Part shown: positions 6,858-29,592 of the stretch, in pieces
How positions within the stretch are numbered: position 1 is the stretch's first letter
Layout: every line of letters starts with the position of its first letter
IMG/VR virus record: IMGVR_UViG_3300028895_000882
Coordinates: 1 to 29,592 of that record
Strand: one strand, 5' to 3'
Length of the DNA: 29,592 nucleotides
Source of the DNA: a virus
The notes under the pieces: model-generated
Told to the model about the DNA's origin: nothing
Seen by the model: the letters and a program-made list of their open reading frames with translations, nothing else
Database searches by the model: none
Program-made: the position numbers and the translations under genes

Positions 6858-7741
6858 TCACGCTTCCACACTGGCCAGCCACAACTCCCCCGCCGTGGGA
6901 CAATGCTGCGGCCGGCGGCGTTTTAGCCACATCCACAGATCCACCAGCGCCGGCTCTGCGCTCAACTGTTCCGAATCATCTTTTTTTTTTCCATGCTGTG
7001 CCGACACACCAATTCATACCCGCAACTGACCCGCGCCACGTCCCAAATGTTTTCCGTGGTGATCCACTGGCCGTCGAACGCGGAATGCATCAAATGACCA
7101 TAGCGATAATTCAGCGACATCACCCGCACGCAATAATCGAACAAATCCGACCAACGCACTTCCGCGGATTCCCGCACCAGAAAAAACTCAAACCACTTGC
7201 GCGACAATTCAAACAGCTCCGCATATTCCGGCAACACGCGCGACTGCCAGCCGCCCGTCAACGGATCTTTGCGGATCGACTGCGGCAACCCCGGATGATG
7301 CAATTCCGGCAACACCATCTGTTCCGTTCGCCCCACCGGTTCCCTCAACAACGGCACCTCCCAAATACTACCGTTTGCAAACACCACCGGCTCCGTCGAT
7401 TTCGCGGCGATATAGTGCCGCTCCAGATCCTGCGGCCGCGGCACATCAGCGCACGCCACCCACACGCCCGGAGCCGCCGGAATCCACTTTTGCCGCTGAG
7501 GGAAATAGCCCAGCACGGCCGGCGGTTCGGCGTCTTCCGGCCAAACACTGGCGACGCATCCGGCGACACCTCCCGGCCCCGTTTTCGCATCGTTCACCGC
7601 GCACGCGTCGGCGTCTTTGACGTCGCCGAAATAATCCGCCAACCCGACGTCCTGCCATTCGGCCGCCCATTCCTGCCGTCGCAAACACGCAAACAAATCA
7701 TCCGCCTGCAGCCCTTCCACAAACAACACCGGCACCGCCAT
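6858..7741 (-). CDS. Predicted -1 frameshift product of the chaperone-like gene (about 294 aa)
   Basis: If ribosomes slip -1 on the A10 run at 6981-6990, translation leaves the 259-aa frame and continues DDSEQLSAEPALVDLWMWLK then RRRPQHCPTAGELWLASVEA, stopping at TGA 6860-6858. This 40-codon extension has normal protein composition, fills the gap between the zero-frame stop (6962) and the SEC-C gene (start 6839), and ends 18 bases before that start, leaving just enough room for its ribosome site. The G/GT arrangement of lambda-like phages (a short form and a -1 frameshifted long form just before the tape measure gene) is the model. A homopolymer miscall would also make the long form, but as the only product. 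Confidence 0.65.
6962..7741 (-). CDS. Putative tail assembly chaperone (short, zero-frame form)
   Basis: The start is ATG 7741, which overlaps the upstream stop (ATGA) and has GGGAG 7 bases before it. The zero-frame product is 259 aa and ends HSMEKKKMIRNS right after an A10 run. The protein has no signal peptide; its C-terminal third is helical and aromatic (SRKWFEFFLVRESAEVRWSD, SLNYRYGHLMHSAF). I do not recognise a domain. Position two genes before the tape measure plus the slippery run suggest the gpG role: binding the tape measure and recruiting tail tube protein. At 259 aa it is larger than lambda gpG (about 140 aa), so the assignment is by context. Confidence 0.65.
   Translation of the reverse strand: MAVPVLFVEGLQADDLFACLRRQEWAAEWQDVGLADYFGDVKDADACAVNDAKTGPGGVAGCVASVWPEDAEPPAVLGYFPQRQKWIPAAPGVWVACADVPRPQDLERHYIAAKSTEPVVFANGSIWEVPLLREPVGRTEQMVLPELHHPGLPQSIRKDPLTGGWQSRVLPEYAELFELSRKWFEFFLVRESAEVRWSDLFDYCVRVMSLNYRYGHLMHSAFDGQWITTENIWDVARVSCGYELVCRHSMEKKKMIRNS
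6981..6990 (-). promoter_or_regulatory. A10 slippery run, predicted -1 frameshift site
   Basis: The minus strand reads ATGG, ten A, then GATGATTCGG. In the zero frame this is ATG GAA AAA AAA AAG ATG. It satisfies the X-XXY-YYZ slippery rule (A-AAA-AAA or A-AAA-AAG) for -1 slippage, and could also cause polymerase slippage. It is the only such long homopolymer in the window. No obvious stem-loop or pseudoknot was identified just downstream by eye. Confidence 0.65.
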
Positions 7742-8088
7742 CAGATCACTCCCATCTGCCGCGACTGCTGCTCCTGCAGCCACCGCCATGTCCACCGCGC
7801 CACCTGTTTCACAAACGCCACCACCAACGGCTGGACAATCCACATCCACACCGAAAACCCGGACACCGCAAACGCCACCGCGTCCCGCTCCGTCAACTCG
7901 CCCCCGGATTCCACAAACCGCCCGACAATCCGCCCCGACACCTGATCCGCCCGCCGCCGGCGACTCTCCCGCTTCTGTTCGCGGCGGAGTTCTTTCCGAC
8001 TGAGCCCCCGCCGCTGCACTGCCGTGAGCGGAACCAGTCCGAATTCTTCCCGCAGCGCCCGCTGCAAATCCAATGGCCTCACAATCAT
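7741..8088 (-). CDS. Basic protein with one C-terminal membrane segment, 115 aa
   Basis: ATG 8088 overlaps the stop of the lipoprotein gene (ATGA). The N-terminal half is very basic (GLSRKELRREQKRESRRRRA). Residues ~75-95 form a hydrophobic segment (AFAVSGFSVWMWIVQPLVVA), followed by an amphipathic Trp/Arg/Gln tail. The first ~25 residues (RPLDLQRALREEFGLVPLTA) look like a small helical domain. This is a tail-anchored topology. It is coupled to the thioredoxin lipoprotein on one side and the chaperone-like gene on the other. No family recognised. Confidence 0.65.
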   Translation of the reverse strand: MIVRPLDLQRALREEFGLVPLTAVQRRGLSRKELRREQKRESRRRRADQVSGRIVGRFVESGGELTERDAVAFAVSGFSVWMWIVQPLVVAFVKQVARWTWRWLQEQQSRQMGVI

Positions 8089-9272
8089 TCGAACACCACC
8101 GTTAAATCAGGAACCGGAAGCAAACCCCGCCCGCGCAAATCCAGCCGCACCTCCCGGCCATCTGCCGACACCGTCACGCCATGCAGCTCCGCCGTGATTC
8201 TCACCGGCCCGCGATCCACCGACACCATCAACGGCTCCGACAACGACAATTCCCGGCCGTTCATCGTGAGCCCCGACGATTCCGGCAACGACAACCGCAA
8301 CCCCAGCGACTCACTGTTCCACACACGATCGAGCAACAACGCCGACAACAACGATGGCAACGTGTCCGGCACATCCAGCGTAATTTCGAACAACCCAGCC
8401 ACTGCCGGTTCCACCTGCTGCGAGCGTGCGACGTGATCGGCCAGCAACTGCAACACGCCCGCCAGCGACGGATCCGCCACCACCGCTGCCGTGGTGACTC
8501 CCGCCGCCACCTTTGCCGGCAACGGCTGCAGACTCACGCCGCTTTCCCGTGCCATCTGTTCCAGTCCCGCCCGCGTACTGCCGCCCACTCGCAACTGCGT
8601 CACCCTCGCCCCGCCGCCTGCATAAACAAAAAACGACGGCAACGACGCCGCCTGCATCACGTTGTATTCCGCGGCGTAGTCCGGATTTTTCTCCACATCC
8701 ACCACCTGCACCACCGCCGCCGCATCTGGTCCGATCAAATCCCCGGCCGCCTGTTTTGTCGTGCGACACGGCCCGCACCATTCGGCCGACAACATCACAA
8801 TCCGCGGCAACCGTTCCGCCGCCGATGCCGCCACTGGTCGATCCACCGACCAGCGAACCACCAAACCTTCGACAACACGATCCACACCAGAAACAGGAAC
8901 AGCCGCATCCAGACCACCAGACTGAACATCGCCCGAGCCATCCCCACACCGGCACGCCTCACCAATGCAATCCACACACTGGCAATCCGGGTTCCCACAT
9001 TTGCACGGAGCCGGCACCATTTCCGATTGACCCTCCGGAACATACTGCACCTCCACGAATTCCACCTGCGGCTCCGGTTCTGAGTCCAGATCCACGGCAC
9101 TGCCAGCCGCATCGGTCAACGTTCGCATTCCCGACAACTCCATTCGCAGCCGTGCCAGTTCCAGATCACGTTCCACGGTTTCCGGCGTGATCCCGCGCGG
9201 CGTGGCTGGCGGCTCAACACAGCCCGCCACCAACACCGCCACCAAACACACAAACATCCAACGCGTCATCAT
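8085..9272 (-). CDS. Lipoprotein with Cys-rich cluster and thioredoxin domain
   Basis: The product (395 aa from ATG 9272) opens with a lipoprotein signal: FVCLVAVLVAGC, lipobox Cys 18. A short helix follows (residues ~30-50), then a cluster of seven Cys between 90 and 109 (CKCGNPDCQCVDCIGEACRC). Residues ~150-250 are a thioredoxin fold with AEWCGPCR (active-site Cys 166 and 169) and the cis-proline loop SLPSFFVYAG. The C-terminal ~120 residues (ITLDVPDTLPSLL onward) are beta-rich and unknown. A lipid-anchored disulfide oxidoreductase outside the inner membrane is the simplest reading; the Cys cluster may bind metal. The start overlaps the stop of the peptidase gene (A-TGA-TG), with GGAAGG upstream. 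A thioredoxin lipoprotein inside a tail operon is highly unusual. Confidence 0.85.
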   Translation of the reverse strand: MMTRWMFVCLVAVLVAGCVEPPATPRGITPETVERDLELARLRMELSGMRTLTDAAGSAVDLDSEPEPQVEFVEVQYVPEGQSEMVPAPCKCGNPDCQCVDCIGEACRCGDGSGDVQSGGLDAAVPVSGVDRVVEGLVVRWSVDRPVAASAAERLPRIVMLSAEWCGPCRTTKQAAGDLIGPDAAAVVQVVDVEKNPDYAAEYNVMQAASLPSFFVYAGGGARVTQLRVGGSTRAGLEQMARESGVSLQPLPAKVAAGVTTAAVVADPSLAGVLQLLADHVARSQQVEPAVAGLFEITLDVPDTLPSLLSALLLDRVWNSESLGLRLSLPESSGLTMNGRELSLSEPLMVSVDRGPVRITAELHGVTVSADGREVRLDLRGRGLLPVPDLTVVFE

Positions 9273-10138
9273 GTCGCCTTCCGTGTCCACGGCGATTCCC
9301 TCCGCCAATCCACAAACCGTTCCTCCGGCTTATCCGGGAGCAACAAATAACCACCAAACGGCTGAGCCTGCGTGCGCTGCAGTTGTTCATAACACTTGCG
9401 GCTCATCAGATAGTACTGATCGCCGTGAGAATTCCAGACGACCAGATACCACACGCCATCAATCCGCACCGCCCAAATGATTTCCGTTGCGTGGCCTCCA
9501 CCACCTCGCGGCAACGTGTCCATCAGCCGCCGCGCGCCAATCTGAGACCACCGCGGCGGCCAATACGTTCCAATGTGACCGCTGCCACCCGCCGCCAGTC
9601 CCACCAGCATTCCCTCCCAATCCGGGAGTTCACCGTGTTCAGACACCCACGTTTGATCGATGTCAACCGCCGACGCACGCCGCGCAAAATTCGAACTGCT
9701 CCGTTCGTACGAATCGTACGGCCAATCCGATTCCAGCGGCAAACCGGGAGCCACTCCGATGGCTCCGAGCCCCCGCGTGAGCACGCCGACGCCCGACTGA
9801 ATCGACGTCCCCTGATCCCGCCCGACGTTTTGCGGCCGCCCGAAATACTCAGACGCGTTGTATGCGTAGATATCCGCCATCTGCCACATTTTGCCGGTCA
9901 CGTACCACTGCCGCTTTTCTTCGCCGTTGGCCAGCGACTGGCCCTGACAATCGTTCCGCGCCTGCCGCTGAGCCCTCATGTGAGGCATCGGATTCGCATC
10001 CGGATCCAGCAGACGGGACTCCCAGTTGGGATAGTCCCTCGCGTTAATGGCCTTCACTTTCATCAACGCATTGCAAAACCGGCGTTCCGTTTCCGTCGGT
10101 TCAATCAGTCCGGAATACCACGTTTCAGTTGTTGGCAT
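9269..10138 (-). CDS. Papain-like (C1-type) cysteine peptidase
   Basis: The start is ATG 10138 (GGAGG 6 bases upstream; a second ATG at 10141 is adjacent), giving 289 aa. The catalytic set of the papain fold is visible in order: Cys 64 in ARNDCQGQSLA with Gln 57/59 just before it, then GLPLESDWPYDSYE, which closely mimics the papain segment before the central helix, then His 216 in GGGGHATEIIW, and Asn 236 in VVWNSHGD (papain NSWG). There is no propeptide or signal peptide, so it acts in the cytoplasm or rides in the virion unless released by lysis. Phage C1 peptidases are rare. Possible roles: virion maturation, host protein degradation, or breakdown of a protein envelope at entry or exit. 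It overlaps both neighbours. Confidence 0.85.
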   Translation of the reverse strand: MPTTETWYSGLIEPTETERRFCNALMKVKAINARDYPNWESRLLDPDANPMPHMRAQRQARNDCQGQSLANGEEKRQWYVTGKMWQMADIYAYNASEYFGRPQNVGRDQGTSIQSGVGVLTRGLGAIGVAPGLPLESDWPYDSYERSSSNFARRASAVDIDQTWVSEHGELPDWEGMLVGLAAGGSGHIGTYWPPRWSQIGARRLMDTLPRGGGGHATEIIWAVRIDGVWYLVVWNSHGDQYYLMSRKCYEQLQRTQAQPFGGYLLLPDKPEERFVDWRRESPWTRKAT

Positions 10139-10505
10139 CATCAACCTCCGATCCGTCTCCGCCTTCCAGAATCGACGCGTGCAATTCCGCGGTCCACTTG
10201 CCGTCATTCAACGCGTCCGCTTCGAAATCCAGCACCGGCTGCCACGCCGCCGCTTCCGCACGTGCCGCTTCTGCCGTCAGATACTCGGCCACCTCCCGAT
10301 CCGTGGCGAACTCCCCCGCCCGCAGCTTTGCCGCTGCGGTTTTGCGGATGTCGCGATTCAACTCCGCCTCCACGCGCCACGCCCGTTCGTACCGGTTTTC
10401 CGTCACCGGATCAGGTTTCGGATTCGGCGTGTCATCCGCTCCCGGAGGAGACCACGACAACACCAGCACCGCCGCCACCAACAACCCCGCCGACCATTTC
10501 CACAT
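10125..10505 (-). CDS. Secreted or membrane-anchored helical protein, 126 aa
   Basis: ATG 10505 overlaps the stop of the previous gene (ATGA; GGGAG 8 bases upstream). Residues 1-20 form a signal or anchor (WKWSAGLLVAAVLVLSWSPP), followed by a Pro-rich linker and an Ala/Arg/Glu-rich helical domain (for example REVAEYLTAEAARAEAAAWQ). The end is acidic. Topology resembles an inner-membrane spanin (N-terminal anchor plus periplasmic coiled coil), but no partner outer spanin was identified unless the neighbouring lipoprotein serves. No family recognised. It overlaps the peptidase start by 14 bases. Confidence 0.65.
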   Translation of the reverse strand: MWKWSAGLLVAAVLVLSWSPPGADDTPNPKPDPVTENRYERAWRVEAELNRDIRKTAAAKLRAGEFATDREVAEYLTAEAARAEAAAWQPVLDFEADALNDGKWTAELHASILEGGDGSEVDDANN

Positions 10506-10828
10506 CAGAACTTCTCCCGCTGCAGAAGTTCCGCAATCCAGTCTGCGCGAGCCTGATCCCGTGTCCGGCACGCTTTCACCGCCGACCACAGAAACTCCGC
10601 CCCGGCTCCTTCGCACGCCTGCTCCAGATCCCGCGCGTATTCCTGCACTCCCGCCGGAGCCGGATCATCAGCCCCGCGCGGCGCATCGCCGAACACGTCC
10701 CCCAACAGACCATTGGCCCACCGCTTCCACGCCGCGATCCCTGCGACAACCACGGCGGCCAGCAACAACACCCCCGCCACCAGCGCCTGCGCAGCAGGCA
10801 TCCCGAACAATTCCGCCGTGGCTACCAT
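10505..10828 (-). CDS. Single-pass membrane protein, 107 aa
   Basis: The start is ATG 10828 within GTGATG, where the TGA is the stop of the preceding gene. After a short N-terminus comes a hydrophobic helix (AQALVAGVLLLAAVVVAGIA, residues ~13-32) followed by the positive AWKRW. This suggests an N-out/C-in single pass. The cytoplasmic remainder is helical and charged with two Cys. It could be a holin-like or scaffold protein for the neighbouring peptidase. No family recognised. Confidence 0.6.
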   Translation of the reverse strand: MVATAELFGMPAAQALVAGVLLLAAVVVAGIAAWKRWANGLLGDVFGDAPRGADDPAPAGVQEYARDLEQACEGAGAEFLWSAVKACRTRDQARADWIAELLQREKF

Positions 10829-11172
10829 CACGCCACCGATTCTGTCAACGACAGCCCTTTGGCGGCGTAGCTCAACACGTGAGTCACCACCTGTTGAATC
10901 ACCACGCCTTCATACGTTTCCGGAACGTACGGAAGATCCACATAGCGATTCAGCACCGTAGACAACAACGTGGCAATCCGTTCGATTTCTTCCGCGGACA
11001 ACCCATCCGCCGAATCCAGCAGCAGATCCAACTCCGCCGGACCCAACAACCGCACGATTTGCCACACGATGAATTCAATCACCACCGCTTCATGCGATTC
11101 ATCGAGCCACGGTAAATCCAACCGCAGATTCAGCGCGGCCGTGATTTTGTCGGCGTATTCTTCGCGCGTCAT
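10828..11172 (-). CDS. Internally duplicated helical protein, 114 aa
   Basis: ATG 11172 has GGAGG 7 bases upstream and overlaps the stop of the 73-aa gene (ATGA). Two copies of a ~32-residue unit are visible: LRLDLPWLDESHEAVVIEFI (from about residue 16) and RYVDLPYVPETYEGVVIQQV (from about residue 76). Each follows a Leu-Asn and leads into a hydrophobic helix. The shared pattern is D-L-P-x-x-x-E-x-x-E-x-V-V-I. Single copies of this kind of motif occur in small phage proteins of unknown role. The duplication suggests pseudo-twofold assembly. No enzymatic motif. Confidence 0.65.
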   Translation of the reverse strand: MTREEYADKITAALNLRLDLPWLDESHEAVVIEFIVWQIVRLLGPAELDLLLDSADGLSAEEIERIATLLSTVLNRYVDLPYVPETYEGVVIQQVVTHVLSYAAKGLSLTESVA

Positions 11173-11390
11173 GGCGTGGCCTCCACAATATCCGGATGGC
11201 AGTCCAACTGCTCCGCTTCCGGCATTTCCACCAACCGCCGCGATCCTCCGGCTTCAGACACTTCCACTGTGCGACGGTACACCGTGACACCGACCGGCGG
11301 AGCCGGAGCCGTCTGCGATTCCGCACCCGGCATTGTCGGTTCCGGCGGCACGGCTCCCAGCACGTCCGCCACTTCTTCCTGATCAGCCAT
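11169..11390 (-). CDS. Small acidic Pro-rich protein, 73 aa
   Basis: The start is ATG 11390, with GGAGG 8 bases upstream; a TTG at 11396 lies within the spacer. The N-terminus is acidic and Pro/Ala-rich (LGAVPPEPTMPGAESQTAPA), then a short beta-like segment (VGVTVYRRTVEVSEAGGSRR). It is probably disordered at the start. It is the first gene after the putative tail tube gene and opens the accessory cassette, overlapping the next gene by four bases. No family recognised. Confidence 0.6.
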   Translation of the reverse strand: MADQEEVADVLGAVPPEPTMPGAESQTAPAPPVGVTVYRRTVEVSEAGGSRRLVEMPEAEQLDCHPDIVEATP

Positions 11391-11447: not shown

Positions 11448-12377
11448 CTACTCCAGCGCCACCGCGGCATTCACCGCCCACGCAATCGGCGCATCACTGA
11501 ACCCGTTCGCATCGTCGCCGGACGCCACCACCGTAACCTGCCGAGCCGCCGGACGACCGGCAATCCGCTGCACCAGCCATACACCCTTCGTGATTGTGCA
11601 TCGAATGTGCTGCGACTCCCCGTCGCCGTAAGTGTCGTTTTCATCTTTCTTCCGCAGCAAATGCACACGGAAATTTTCCACCGGCGTTCCCCGCAACGCA
11701 TCCACCGACACATCCGTTGTCGTGAACGAAACCGTTGGAGCGATCGTATCCCCCGCCGCAAACGTGATGGCTTCTTCGGACTCATCGCCAAATTCCATTT
11801 GCGACGCGTTCAGCGAAACGTCGAGCCCATCACATCCCTGCAGCTTCGCCGCCGACGACGTGCCATAGCTGATCGGACCCAACACAAACCCCTCCGCCGT
11901 TGTCGGCGTGATTGTCGTGATGGCGACTGAGCCCGAGCGAATCAACACCGCGTTGGTGCCGTCCGCCACGGGAACAATCCGACCACTGGCCACGGCTTCC
12001 TGCCGATTGCCCGCGCTGATGGAATCGAGATACATCCGCGCCAGCGTCGCCCGGAACCGAATGTGTTCCGTGGTTCCGTGAGCCACCCGGCCGGTCAAAT
12101 TCGAGACCTTCCGATAATAGATATCCGCCGGCGAAACATTGGCTCCCATGTTTCCACACTGAGACAAAAACGCGGCCACCTGCTGCGTGCCGATTGGAAT
12201 TCCCGGTTCCGATCCGTTTTTCGCCACGAACCGCGGATGCGTATCACCCGCCGCAATGTGCGAAATCAACTGATCGTTGAATTCCAAATCTGCGGATTCC
12301 AACTGCGTATATTTCACCGGCGACGTGTCCGCCAACGTGACCACCGCGTGTAGCAACGAAACATCTGAAACACTCAT
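11448..12377 (-). CDS. Putative major tail tube protein
   Basis: ATG 12377 overlaps the stop of the preceding gene (ATGA) and has AGGAGGG 8 bases upstream. The 309-aa product is soluble and beta-rich, with Thr/Val/Ala strands (SGSVAITTITPTTAEGFVLG, GDTIAPTVSFTTTDVSVDAL) and no Cys clusters, signal or membrane segment. It ends with the Ala-rich AWAVNAAVALE. It is the last gene of the connector block and the next large structural gene is the tape measure, the usual place for the tail tube subunit. The tube call is by context and composition; a head-fibre or decoration role is possible. Confidence 0.55.
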   Translation of the reverse strand: MSVSDVSLLHAVVTLADTSPVKYTQLESADLEFNDQLISHIAAGDTHPRFVAKNGSEPGIPIGTQQVAAFLSQCGNMGANVSPADIYYRKVSNLTGRVAHGTTEHIRFRATLARMYLDSISAGNRQEAVASGRIVPVADGTNAVLIRSGSVAITTITPTTAEGFVLGPISYGTSSAAKLQGCDGLDVSLNASQMEFGDESEEAITFAAGDTIAPTVSFTTTDVSVDALRGTPVENFRVHLLRKKDENDTYGDGESQHIRCTITKGVWLVQRIAGRPAARQVTVVASGDDANGFSDAPIAWAVNAAVALE

Positions 12378-27107: not shown

Positions 27108-29093
27108 TCAACGCTGACTGAGCAAAAACGGACTGTTGTGGAATTCACTCACCGCCTGAGCCGGCCGATCGGTGCGGCCGACCGTTTGAGCCGCCACCGG
27201 AGCCTGCCCACTGAACCGTTCCGGAAACGACACCGCGTCCCACACCTGACCGTTTCGCGTGTAGTATTCTGCCAGGACGCGACAATACCGGATCCCGTCC
27301 CCGGCTTCATTCGGCCCGCTGCGGCTCCACTTGTTCCCGTCGCGATAGTCGGCGTTCAACTGCGAAAACAGATGTTCATACGCCTGCCAGTTGTCGCACA
27401 CGTCGGCCGGGAAATACACAAACCCCGCATCCCCGCGATTGATCCGCTTTTGAACCAGCGCCTCCCGGTACTGCTGCGACGCGTGCGAATTCACCATCAG
27501 CAAATCACCCATCCCCAACTGCTTCTGCATGGCGATTAGTTTTGCCGGCTTGTCCGTGCGACGATGTCCCCAATAGTACAAATCCACCGCCACATTCTGC
27601 CCCGTGCGTGAATCCCCTTTGAACGCCTGCGCCTGCTCCAATCGGTCGCACACGCTGTAGACTTCCGCCGTGTATTTGCCGGAATCGATGCCGATTGGAA
27701 ACTCCGCCACCGGCAGAAACGCACCCGCACGATCCACCACCGGATACGTCGAATTCGTCCACTTCAAAAACGCCGACACACCGGCCGACAATCCCCAATC
27801 CACCAGCGCCCCCTGAGCCCGGCCATCGACGTGCCACCACGCACACACGAACCAATGAAACAACAACTCATCCCCTGCCAGCCCGACGTCCGCGGCCGTC
27901 GTCAGAAAACAGGACTCCGGAGGCAACTGGCCGCGGAGATGTTCGCCTCGCAAATGCCCCGCCAACGCGTTTGGCTGCACCACGTCGAATGTCGGCGTCC
28001 ATGATTCGGCCAGCGTCTCCGTTCGAAACTTGCGAAACGATTCCAGATCCCCCGCCCGCTGCCGCTGGATGGCTTCCACGAACTCCCGAGCCACATCGCC
28101 CCAGCCACCAATGAACAGCGAATACAACTTGGACAACGGCCCGAAAATCAGCGTGTCTGATTCCACGGATGGATGCCCACACACGTTGCCCAGCGCGTCC
28201 ACGTATTCTCCATCTGCCAGCCACTGCCCCGCCTTCATCATGACCGGCCGATGATGATCCAACACGAACTGCTCACAATGGGCGCACACATACCGCGCGG
28301 TTTTCTTCGCCTGAGCCGGCGTCGATTCTCCGGCTTCCGTTTTGTCCCACTGGACCCGCTCGAACTCCAGCGTCTGATATTCTCCACAATGCGGACACGG
28401 CACCCAATACCGCAACTGCTGCACGGTTTCATCCTGCAACAACCGATACGCGCGACACGTTCCCGTGTCCGTCGGCGTGCCTTCCTCCACGATTTTGGCC
28501 CCACGTGGATACCCCGTGCAACGGCTTTCAATCGTGTAATACGCATCCGCTTCTGACGACTTGCGGGAAATGATTTTGTTGACTTCCATTTTGAACACGT
28601 ACAACGCGGGATACCCGGCCACACTGCTGCGGCTGCCCGCGTTGGCAATACGGAGCCGGCAATCGGTGAAATGAATGGCTGTGCGGTTCCGCAAATGCAC
28701 CGGAGGCAACTGCCGCCGAATCACCGGCGTTTGCTCCATCATCGGATACACGTGTTCCTCCATGCCGGCGTTCAAAATCCCGGTGTCTGGAAACATCAGT
28801 ACCATTGGAGCCGGCGACTGATCCGCCACCCATTGCACCAGCGAAAGCATTGTGGACGTTTTGCACAGCCTGGTAGCAAACGACAAATGGATTTTGCGGA
28901 CGGCCGGATTGTTCCAGCCGCGTTCAATCACGCCGCGGACGTGCGGAGCTTTCTCGAAATCAAACGCTGTCGACTCCCACGTTGACGGAAACCGCACGTT
29001 CCACGGAGCCCACACCAGCGGATCCTGCGGCACTTCCCGACGAAACCCGACGGCCACACTTCGCCGCAACTGATCAAAACAGACCCCGTACAC
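27108..29093 (-). CDS. Terminase large subunit (GpA family)
   Basis: The start is GTG 29093: GGAGG lies about 6 bases upstream and the gene overlaps the small subunit stop by 20 bases. A TTG further upstream (29156) has no ribosome site. The 661-aa product (lambda gpA is 641 aa) shows the ATPase region (IHLSFATRLCKTSTMLSLVQ, then MVLMFPDTGILNAGMEEHVY), the GTPTDTGTCRAYRLL motif, a zinc-like CPHCGEYQTLEF with later CAHC, and the nuclease domain (TAADVGLAGDELLFHW, IGIDSGKYTAEVYSVCD, GPNEAGDGIRYCRVLAEYY). The phosphate-binding loop reads RLCKT rather than the usual Q-x-GK(T/S), and the Walker B region reads YVFKMEVN with the Asp replaced by Met but the Glu kept. It cuts and packages phage DNA with the small subunit. 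Confidence 0.93.
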   Translation of the reverse strand: MYGVCFDQLRRSVAVGFRREVPQDPLVWAPWNVRFPSTWESTAFDFEKAPHVRGVIERGWNNPAVRKIHLSFATRLCKTSTMLSLVQWVADQSPAPMVLMFPDTGILNAGMEEHVYPMMEQTPVIRRQLPPVHLRNRTAIHFTDCRLRIANAGSRSSVAGYPALYVFKMEVNKIISRKSSEADAYYTIESRCTGYPRGAKIVEEGTPTDTGTCRAYRLLQDETVQQLRYWVPCPHCGEYQTLEFERVQWDKTEAGESTPAQAKKTARYVCAHCEQFVLDHHRPVMMKAGQWLADGEYVDALGNVCGHPSVESDTLIFGPLSKLYSLFIGGWGDVAREFVEAIQRQRAGDLESFRKFRTETLAESWTPTFDVVQPNALAGHLRGEHLRGQLPPESCFLTTAADVGLAGDELLFHWFVCAWWHVDGRAQGALVDWGLSAGVSAFLKWTNSTYPVVDRAGAFLPVAEFPIGIDSGKYTAEVYSVCDRLEQAQAFKGDSRTGQNVAVDLYYWGHRRTDKPAKLIAMQKQLGMGDLLMVNSHASQQYREALVQKRINRGDAGFVYFPADVCDNWQAYEHLFSQLNADYRDGNKWSRSGPNEAGDGIRYCRVLAEYYTRNGQVWDAVSFPERFSGQAPVAAQTVGRTDRPAQAVSEFHNSPFLLSQR

Positions 29094-29592
29094 TGGCCGC
29101 CTCCGTTTCGTTTTGTTCCGGCGGCAACTCCTCCAGCTCCGCCATCGATTCTTCAAACACTTCCGCCGGAATGCGGTCCAGATACCGCTGATAATTCTCC
29201 ACCACTTTCATCACCGCACGCTGCAACGGAGCCAAATCGCCGACCGCCGCGGCCTTGCCGATTTCCACCGTGTAACACTGCTCCGCAAACTCCGGCGACA
29301 CCTGCCGGCTGAACACCCACGGCAGATCGTCCAGACCTCGCCGCAACTCGCCCAACGCCTCCCGCAACAACGAACGCACCACCTCCACACGCACCAGCTC
29401 CCCGGCCGCCTGCTGCTCCAGCCGCTCCCGCTTCTGCCGGTCCAGTTGTTTCACCCGCGCTGCTTCTTCCGCTTCCAGCAACGCGGCCGCCTGCATCCGT
29501 TCATCAAATTCCGTCCGCGGCGTTTCTGCTTCCAGTTTTTTCAACTGCTCCTGATGATGCCATTCCGCCTGAGCCAACGCGATTCCCACCAC
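29074..29592 (-). CDS. Terminase small subunit, Nu1-like (partial at window edge)
   Basis: The reading frame is open from the right edge to 29074; the window begins at a GTG codon but the true start is probably outside. The 172 visible residues are helical: a charged coiled coil (ALLEAEEAARVKQLDRQKRE) then GELVRVEVVRSLLREALGEL and the 'R-x-x-L-D-D-L-P' segment RRGLDDLPWVFSRQVSPEFA. This helical layout matches the C-terminal half of Nu1-type small terminase subunits; the N-terminal winged helix would lie off the edge. It overlaps the large subunit start. Confidence 0.7.
   Translation of the reverse strand: MVGIALAQAEWHHQEQLKKLEAETPRTEFDERMQAAALLEAEEAARVKQLDRQKRERLEQQAAGELVRVEVVRSLLREALGELRRGLDDLPWVFSRQVSPEFAEQCYTVEIGKAAAVGDLAPLQRAVMKVVENYQRYLDRIPAEVFEESMAELEELPPEQNETEAASVRGLF

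Follow-up and report, generated by a model that had tools for sequence, protein, structure and literature searches.

The window analysed here is a complete IMG/VR virus record (IMGVR_UViG_3300028895_000882) of 29,592 b, and its principal genes are encoded on the minus strand. At positions 7741–11390 this strand carries seven open reading frames (ORFs), P0001 to P0007, which a sequence-only reading had described as an overlapped accessory cassette, with a papain-like peptidase and a thioredoxin lipoprotein, inside the tail operon. All seven ORFs are indeed open and overlap at their ends, the junctions being ATGA/TGATG overlaps or a 14-b overlap. Comparison with relatives delimits a conserved core which consists, in order, of a holin-slot protein, a protein with one transmembrane (TM) segment, and P0004, P0005 and P0006. 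On balance, we favour the view that phages of Planctomycetota use the block as their host-lysis module, in which the protease P0005 would serve as the lytic enzyme, probably acting on a cysteine-rich, disulfide-bonded protein wall.

P0005 (9269–10138) is a papain-family (C1) cysteine protease without a signal peptide. An AlphaFold model based on 15 window and viral sequences has a predicted local distance difference test score (pLDDT) of 86, and a Foldseek search with this model yielded 246 PDB matches at E ≤ 0.001, including xylellain (3ois; E 2.7e-9, probability 1.0). Residues Gln59, Cys64, His216 and Asn236 are invariant across the 15 sequences (alignment A2) and also in the distant set A5, and the order Cys-His-Asn, with the oxyanion Gln preceding the Cys, is that of papain family C1, so that the peptidase predicted earlier proved to have both the fold and intact catalytic residues. 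At the sequence level it matched no family of Pfam, PHROG or NCBIfam, and no PDB chain in any meaningful way. It falls below the PF00112 cut-off of 20.7 bits, with zero PF00112 matches in the Pfam scan, and its assignment to this family is therefore based on the fold, the residues and a chain of relatives, of which L085 (31.5 bits), L129 (22.7) and L131 (50.7) exceed the cut-off. P0005 and xylellain are alike in their fold and in their Cys/His/Asn/Gln catalytic set. They differ in that they share only about 16% identity, no pro-region or signal was recognised in P0005, and P0005 is phage-encoded within a conserved cassette. The same fold occurs in phage 'Peptidase C1A' proteins of uncultured Caudovirales (BFVD A0A6J5QDM8 and A0A6J5RCA6), which carry the family name or an 'uncharacterised' label and for which the match descriptions give no role.

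The main rival explanation also envisages a lysis cassette, with P0005 as a papain-fold endolysin that cuts the stem peptides of peptidoglycan while the thioredoxin protects the enzyme's single catalytic cysteine from the oxidising conditions of the periplasm. We consider this unlikely, although it deserves serious weight. It accords with Cys64 being the sole invariant cysteine of the P0005 alignment, and with the papain-like fold of CHAP and NlpC/P60 enzymes, which are reported to be peptidoglycan hydrolases (PMC4126393, PMC10461829). However, the folds closest to P0005 are those of protein-cleaving C1 proteases, xylellain and the cathepsins, and no cell-wall-binding domain was recognised.

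Relatives of the protease were found at 53 viral loci, on one contig of a metagenome-assembled genome (MAG) and on Planctomycetota chromosomes. Clustering at 90% identity defined 36 independent lineages, and the order P0004 family, C1 protease, exported protein is common to all of them, which is more than chance. In 34 of these lineages the gene directly preceding the protease is a member of the P0004 family, termed c0. The P0004 profile, iterated over all ORFs on both strands, gathered 66 members; all of them occur just before the protease, or in the equivalent spot at loci with a truncated protease, and no member was found in any other place. In one Planctomycetota genome (G728, L131 7392–8882) a single ORF combines the C1 protease (PF00112, E 3e-13) with a TM segment, a coiled coil and a CPAC thioredoxin-like end, and this fusion possibly arose by loss of the stop codon between two genes. 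Together, the adjacency in 34 of 36 lineages and the fusion ORF rule out chance neighbourhood for P0004-P0005-P0006. The more general notion that the block is an assortment of unrelated accessory genes, to which the lack of established conservation for P0001 and P0007 lends something, is scarcely credible.

Searches of phage databases with P0005 and with the L003 protease gave zero matches, and the L084 protease, scanned against viral sequences, yielded zero confirmed ones. Two distant proteases used as queries led to one distant match, in the 595-kb uncultured phage LR756511; there (L134 3926–4765, LR756511.1) a distant C1 protease directly follows a secreted protein and lies near a weakly cytochrome-like protein with a CxxCH motif.

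The neighbours of the core vary among the relatives and include terminases, tail fibres, early genes and DUF1353/SNase genes. Because the gene order is kept while the context changes, the cassette is conserved whereas its place is not. A tail-assembly role was rejected on these grounds, in agreement with the sequence-only reading, although its description of the cassette as a feature of the tail operon did not hold for the relatives. That reading had also proposed that the genes form a functional set, an idea which would have been weakened by finding them apart in unrelated contexts; the opposite was observed. The proposal stands for the core P0004-P0005-P0006 but does not extend to all seven genes. 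The varying context also bears on a possible role in virion maturation or entry, in which P0005 would be either a maturation protease or an injected one and the thioredoxin would fold disulfides of tail proteins. In the window the cassette does lie inside a structural operon, before the tape measure gene, as such a role would lead one to expect. It is nevertheless a distinctly improbable explanation, given a constant order amid terminase, tail fibre or early genes and a partner whose export removes it from the place where virions assemble.

The exported partner in the window, P0006 (8085–9272), is a lipoprotein with a cysteine cluster, a thioredoxin domain and a C-terminal beta-rich region. 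As had been read from the sequence, it carries a lipobox (LVAGC) and a thioredoxin domain (residues ~153–245), which scores 28.5 bits against the PF00085 cut-off of 23.5, with an intact WCGPC motif and the cis-proline motif SLPSF. The cysteine cluster CKCGNPDCQCVDCIGEACRCG (window 8930–9010) precedes the thioredoxin domain and is perhaps metal-binding, with a weak metallothionein match (E 0.34). A kinship of the C-terminal domain with a separate downstream gene family of the relatives, encoding proteins of 90–110 aa, was considered and rejected (hhalign probability 0.7%).

Among the 36 genes downstream of the protease at least 32 encode a hydrophobic N-terminus, and a lipobox is frequent. In 26 of the 36 lineages the exported partner resembles thioredoxin and has a CxxC motif, a count in which L129, L130 and L131 are included by motif alone, the Pfam scan having given no thioredoxin match for L129 and L131. 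Seven lineages have a lipoprotein or secreted protein that bears a His-rich stretch ('LHDxxH') and, at its C-terminus, a CPGGVCP-like motif, and in one the partner is solely a coiled coil. In the remaining two it is trypsin-like (L121 by PF13365, L122 by sequence). Moreover, L123 and L077 encode a thioredoxin fused to a trypsin-like PF13365 domain, the thioredoxin part of L077 being recognised by motif. That a trypsin-like protease replaces the thioredoxin in two lineages and is fused to it in two others points to protein substrates, and argues against P0005 being a peptidoglycan endolysin. The pattern 'HGI..mThqqm.diHa.lHdG' with a CPGGVCP-like end, and with neither thioredoxin nor a known family, was seen in L028, L041, L042, L051–L054, L060 and L132, and the exported protein of L033 combines a thioredoxin-like CxxC with a C-terminal stretch related to the CPGGVCP-like type.

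Upstream of the protease lie three genes encoding small helical or membrane proteins. P0004 (10125–10505, start refined to ATG 10505) has an N-terminal hydrophobic segment, predicted to be a membrane anchor or signal, followed by an exported two-helix domain which AlphaFold models as a helical hairpin, with pLDDT >90 for the helices. In many relatives (L026, L036, L055, L063) the P0004-like proteins carry an extra beta-rich domain between the signal and the helical part. P0003 (10505–10828, start refined to ATG 10828) is a single-TM protein. P0002 (10828–11172) is an amphipathic helical protein whose duplication, noted previously, is evident in the repeat LDLPWLDE / VDLPYVPE. Homologues of P0002 occur upstream of the cassette in L075 and L041, and the same slot is occupied in L029 and L030 by a recognised holin of family PF23987 (Phage_holin_10, the Pam3 gp28 family). 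PF23987 was detected in five of 34 records (E ≤ 1.2e-18), always just upstream of c0 and nowhere else, the positions in L054 and L060 having been converted by hand. P0003 homologues lie between the holin and c0 in L029, L030 and L031, and in the equivalent place (-2) in L042 and L060. P0002 and/or P0003 may thus act as the holin of the window.

The relatives also indicate the likely host. When 84,980 genomes of bacteria and archaea from all phyla were scanned with short patterns, an approach of limited reach, the sole match was the MAG contig, which is labelled Planctomycetaceae. Among 392 sampled Planctomycetota genomes there were four strong matches (E ≤ 1e-8), all in the order of this MAG. 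Judging from the handle numbering, 28 of the 392 genomes would belong to that order, giving four matches in 28 genomes inside it and none in 364 outside. Within the order, ten matches were obtained from 170 genomes, and a class-wide sample, in which single chromosomes have as many as four copies, extended the matches to further orders of the class. Terminases adjoin four of the chromosomal copies scanned. In G498:C1 and G798:C1 (L120–L122 and L128–L130) there are three and four protease matches per chromosome, respectively, and those inspected carry the cassette. From the hosts of its relatives, we infer that the virus of the window infects Planctomycetota.

The planctomycete envelope has been reported to resist sodium dodecyl sulphate and to consist of disulfide-stabilised protein with a high content of Pro and Cys (PMC3035269). 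A 'protein sacculus with disulfide bonds' has been described for planctomycetes (PMC2754498), cell-wall preparations contain Cys-rich YTV proteins (PMC8567305), and in P. limnophila most genes for peptidoglycan synthesis are non-essential (PMC10632474).

A lytic process can be envisaged as follows. As infection ends, the inner membrane would be opened by a small membrane protein, for which relatives have a holin and the window P0002 and/or P0003, and cytosolic P0005, having no export signal, would gain the periplasm. P0006, already exported, would reduce disulfides or, in relatives, the exported partner would alternatively supply a second, trypsin-like protease. The disulfide-linked, Cys-rich protein wall of the host would then collapse through reduction and proteolysis together, while P0004, anchored in the inner membrane, may assist, with the outer lipoprotein, in disrupting or bridging the membranes, much as spanins do. 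In its fullest form, the proposal is that a holin, a C1 protease and an exported thioredoxin or trypsin-like protease dissolve a protein wall instead of cutting peptidoglycan, and that this is specific to phages of Planctomycetota; we put it forward tentatively, with somewhat more doubt than confidence. If it is true, protein and not peptidoglycan is the wall to be broken for phage release in these hosts.

A further explanation is a lysogenic-conversion or superinfection-exclusion set whose exported proteins alter the host envelope and bar other phages. Membrane and lipoprotein partners, and prophage copies of which there are several per genome in G498 and G798, would suit such a set. However, a protease without a signal cannot reach the envelope unless the membrane is opened, a recognised holin is adjacent in five records, and the overlapped genes lie within late-gene blocks rather than being placed separately. 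We regard this explanation as improbable. A role in the cell envelope, which the sequence-only reading had suggested, is likely, and among the three options it offered, lysis of a protein-rich envelope is the best supported.

Lysozyme, amidase, CHAP, NlpC/P60, SLT, M15 and M23 families were absent from the Pfam families listed for six contigs (37–52 kb) and the window, these being the 25 commonest or strongest per set among ORFs above 70–85 aa. The PHROG scan of A3 is uninformative on endolysins because it gives the best 25 of 110 families. Several observations weigh against lysis by a protein-degrading cassette. Single-member Pfam matches weaker than ~5e-10 (A3), 1e-5 (A4) or 1.6e-8 (A7) lie outside the families listed, and most of the viral contigs may be incomplete. 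No window protein was recognised as a holin: P0002 and P0003 fill the slot and match no holin family. Among solved structures, including those of spanins, none significantly matched the P0004 hairpin, so the spanin comparison is one of topology. Reduction cannot be obligatory, since about 10 of the 36 lineages have no thioredoxin. The position of the window cassette amid structural genes is an unusual one for lysis genes. Finally, planctomycetes also possess peptidoglycan sacculi, which are sensitive to lysozyme and are dissolved by it (PMC4432640), and the substrate may therefore be peptidoglycan, as the endolysin explanation holds.

The outer genes of the overlapped set are less firmly attached to it. 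P0001 (11169–11390), a small acidic protein, probably starts at ATG 11390, some 57 b past the preceding gene and with its own ribosome-binding site (ggaggag); it has no family match and its membership of the cassette is doubtful. P0007 (7741–8088) is basic and has a single hydrophobic segment at its C-terminal end. No homologue of it was found at the ~65 loci examined and its membership is uncertain; relatives often have a TM protein downstream of the exported gene. As to the flanking genes, the tail tube assignment (11448–12377) was confirmed by no family, while that of the tape measure received weak support (phrog_1272, E 6e-4). A GpA-type terminase lies at 27108–29156. In L003 (8089–8837), similar loci and L026, the cassette is repeatedly preceded, at a distance of a few genes, by DUF1353 and/or SNase genes.

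It has been debated for decades whether stress in planctomycetes is borne by a wall of peptidoglycan or by one of disulfide-linked protein (PMC4432640 versus PMC3035269 and PMC10632474). Phages reveal which layer must break for release, and a protease/thioredoxin cassette with no detectable peptidoglycan hydrolase renders the question directly testable and could provide enzymes for lysing planctomycetes. Titles and abstracts, among which subscription journals are sparsely covered, yielded no account of lysis by planctomycete phages or of a thioredoxin as a lysis protein.

Compared with lysis cassettes of the lambda S-R-Rz-Rz1 type, the genes are likewise compact and overlapped, with a small membrane protein (the PF23987 holin in relatives), a cytosolic enzyme lacking a signal peptide and, by predicted topology, an inner-membrane helical protein and an outer lipoprotein. 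The differences are that the enzyme is a C1 protease, that the lipoprotein bears a thioredoxin or trypsin-like protease, and that P0004 precedes the enzyme instead of following it; no homology of the cassette proteins to spanins was found. With LysA/LysB of mycobacteriophages the cassette would share the principle of a lysis enzyme fitted to a peculiar host envelope (PMC3314691, PMC6116114). LysB attacks lipid of the mycobacterial outer layer and accompanies a peptidoglycan endolysin, whereas in the present case no peptidoglycan hydrolase was detected alongside the protease. Since its enzyme is a C1 protease and not a recognisable peptidoglycan hydrolase, the cassette departs from the holin-lysin kind as usually defined and is best seen as a variation on it, and it would represent a new principle of lysis if protein is the true substrate.

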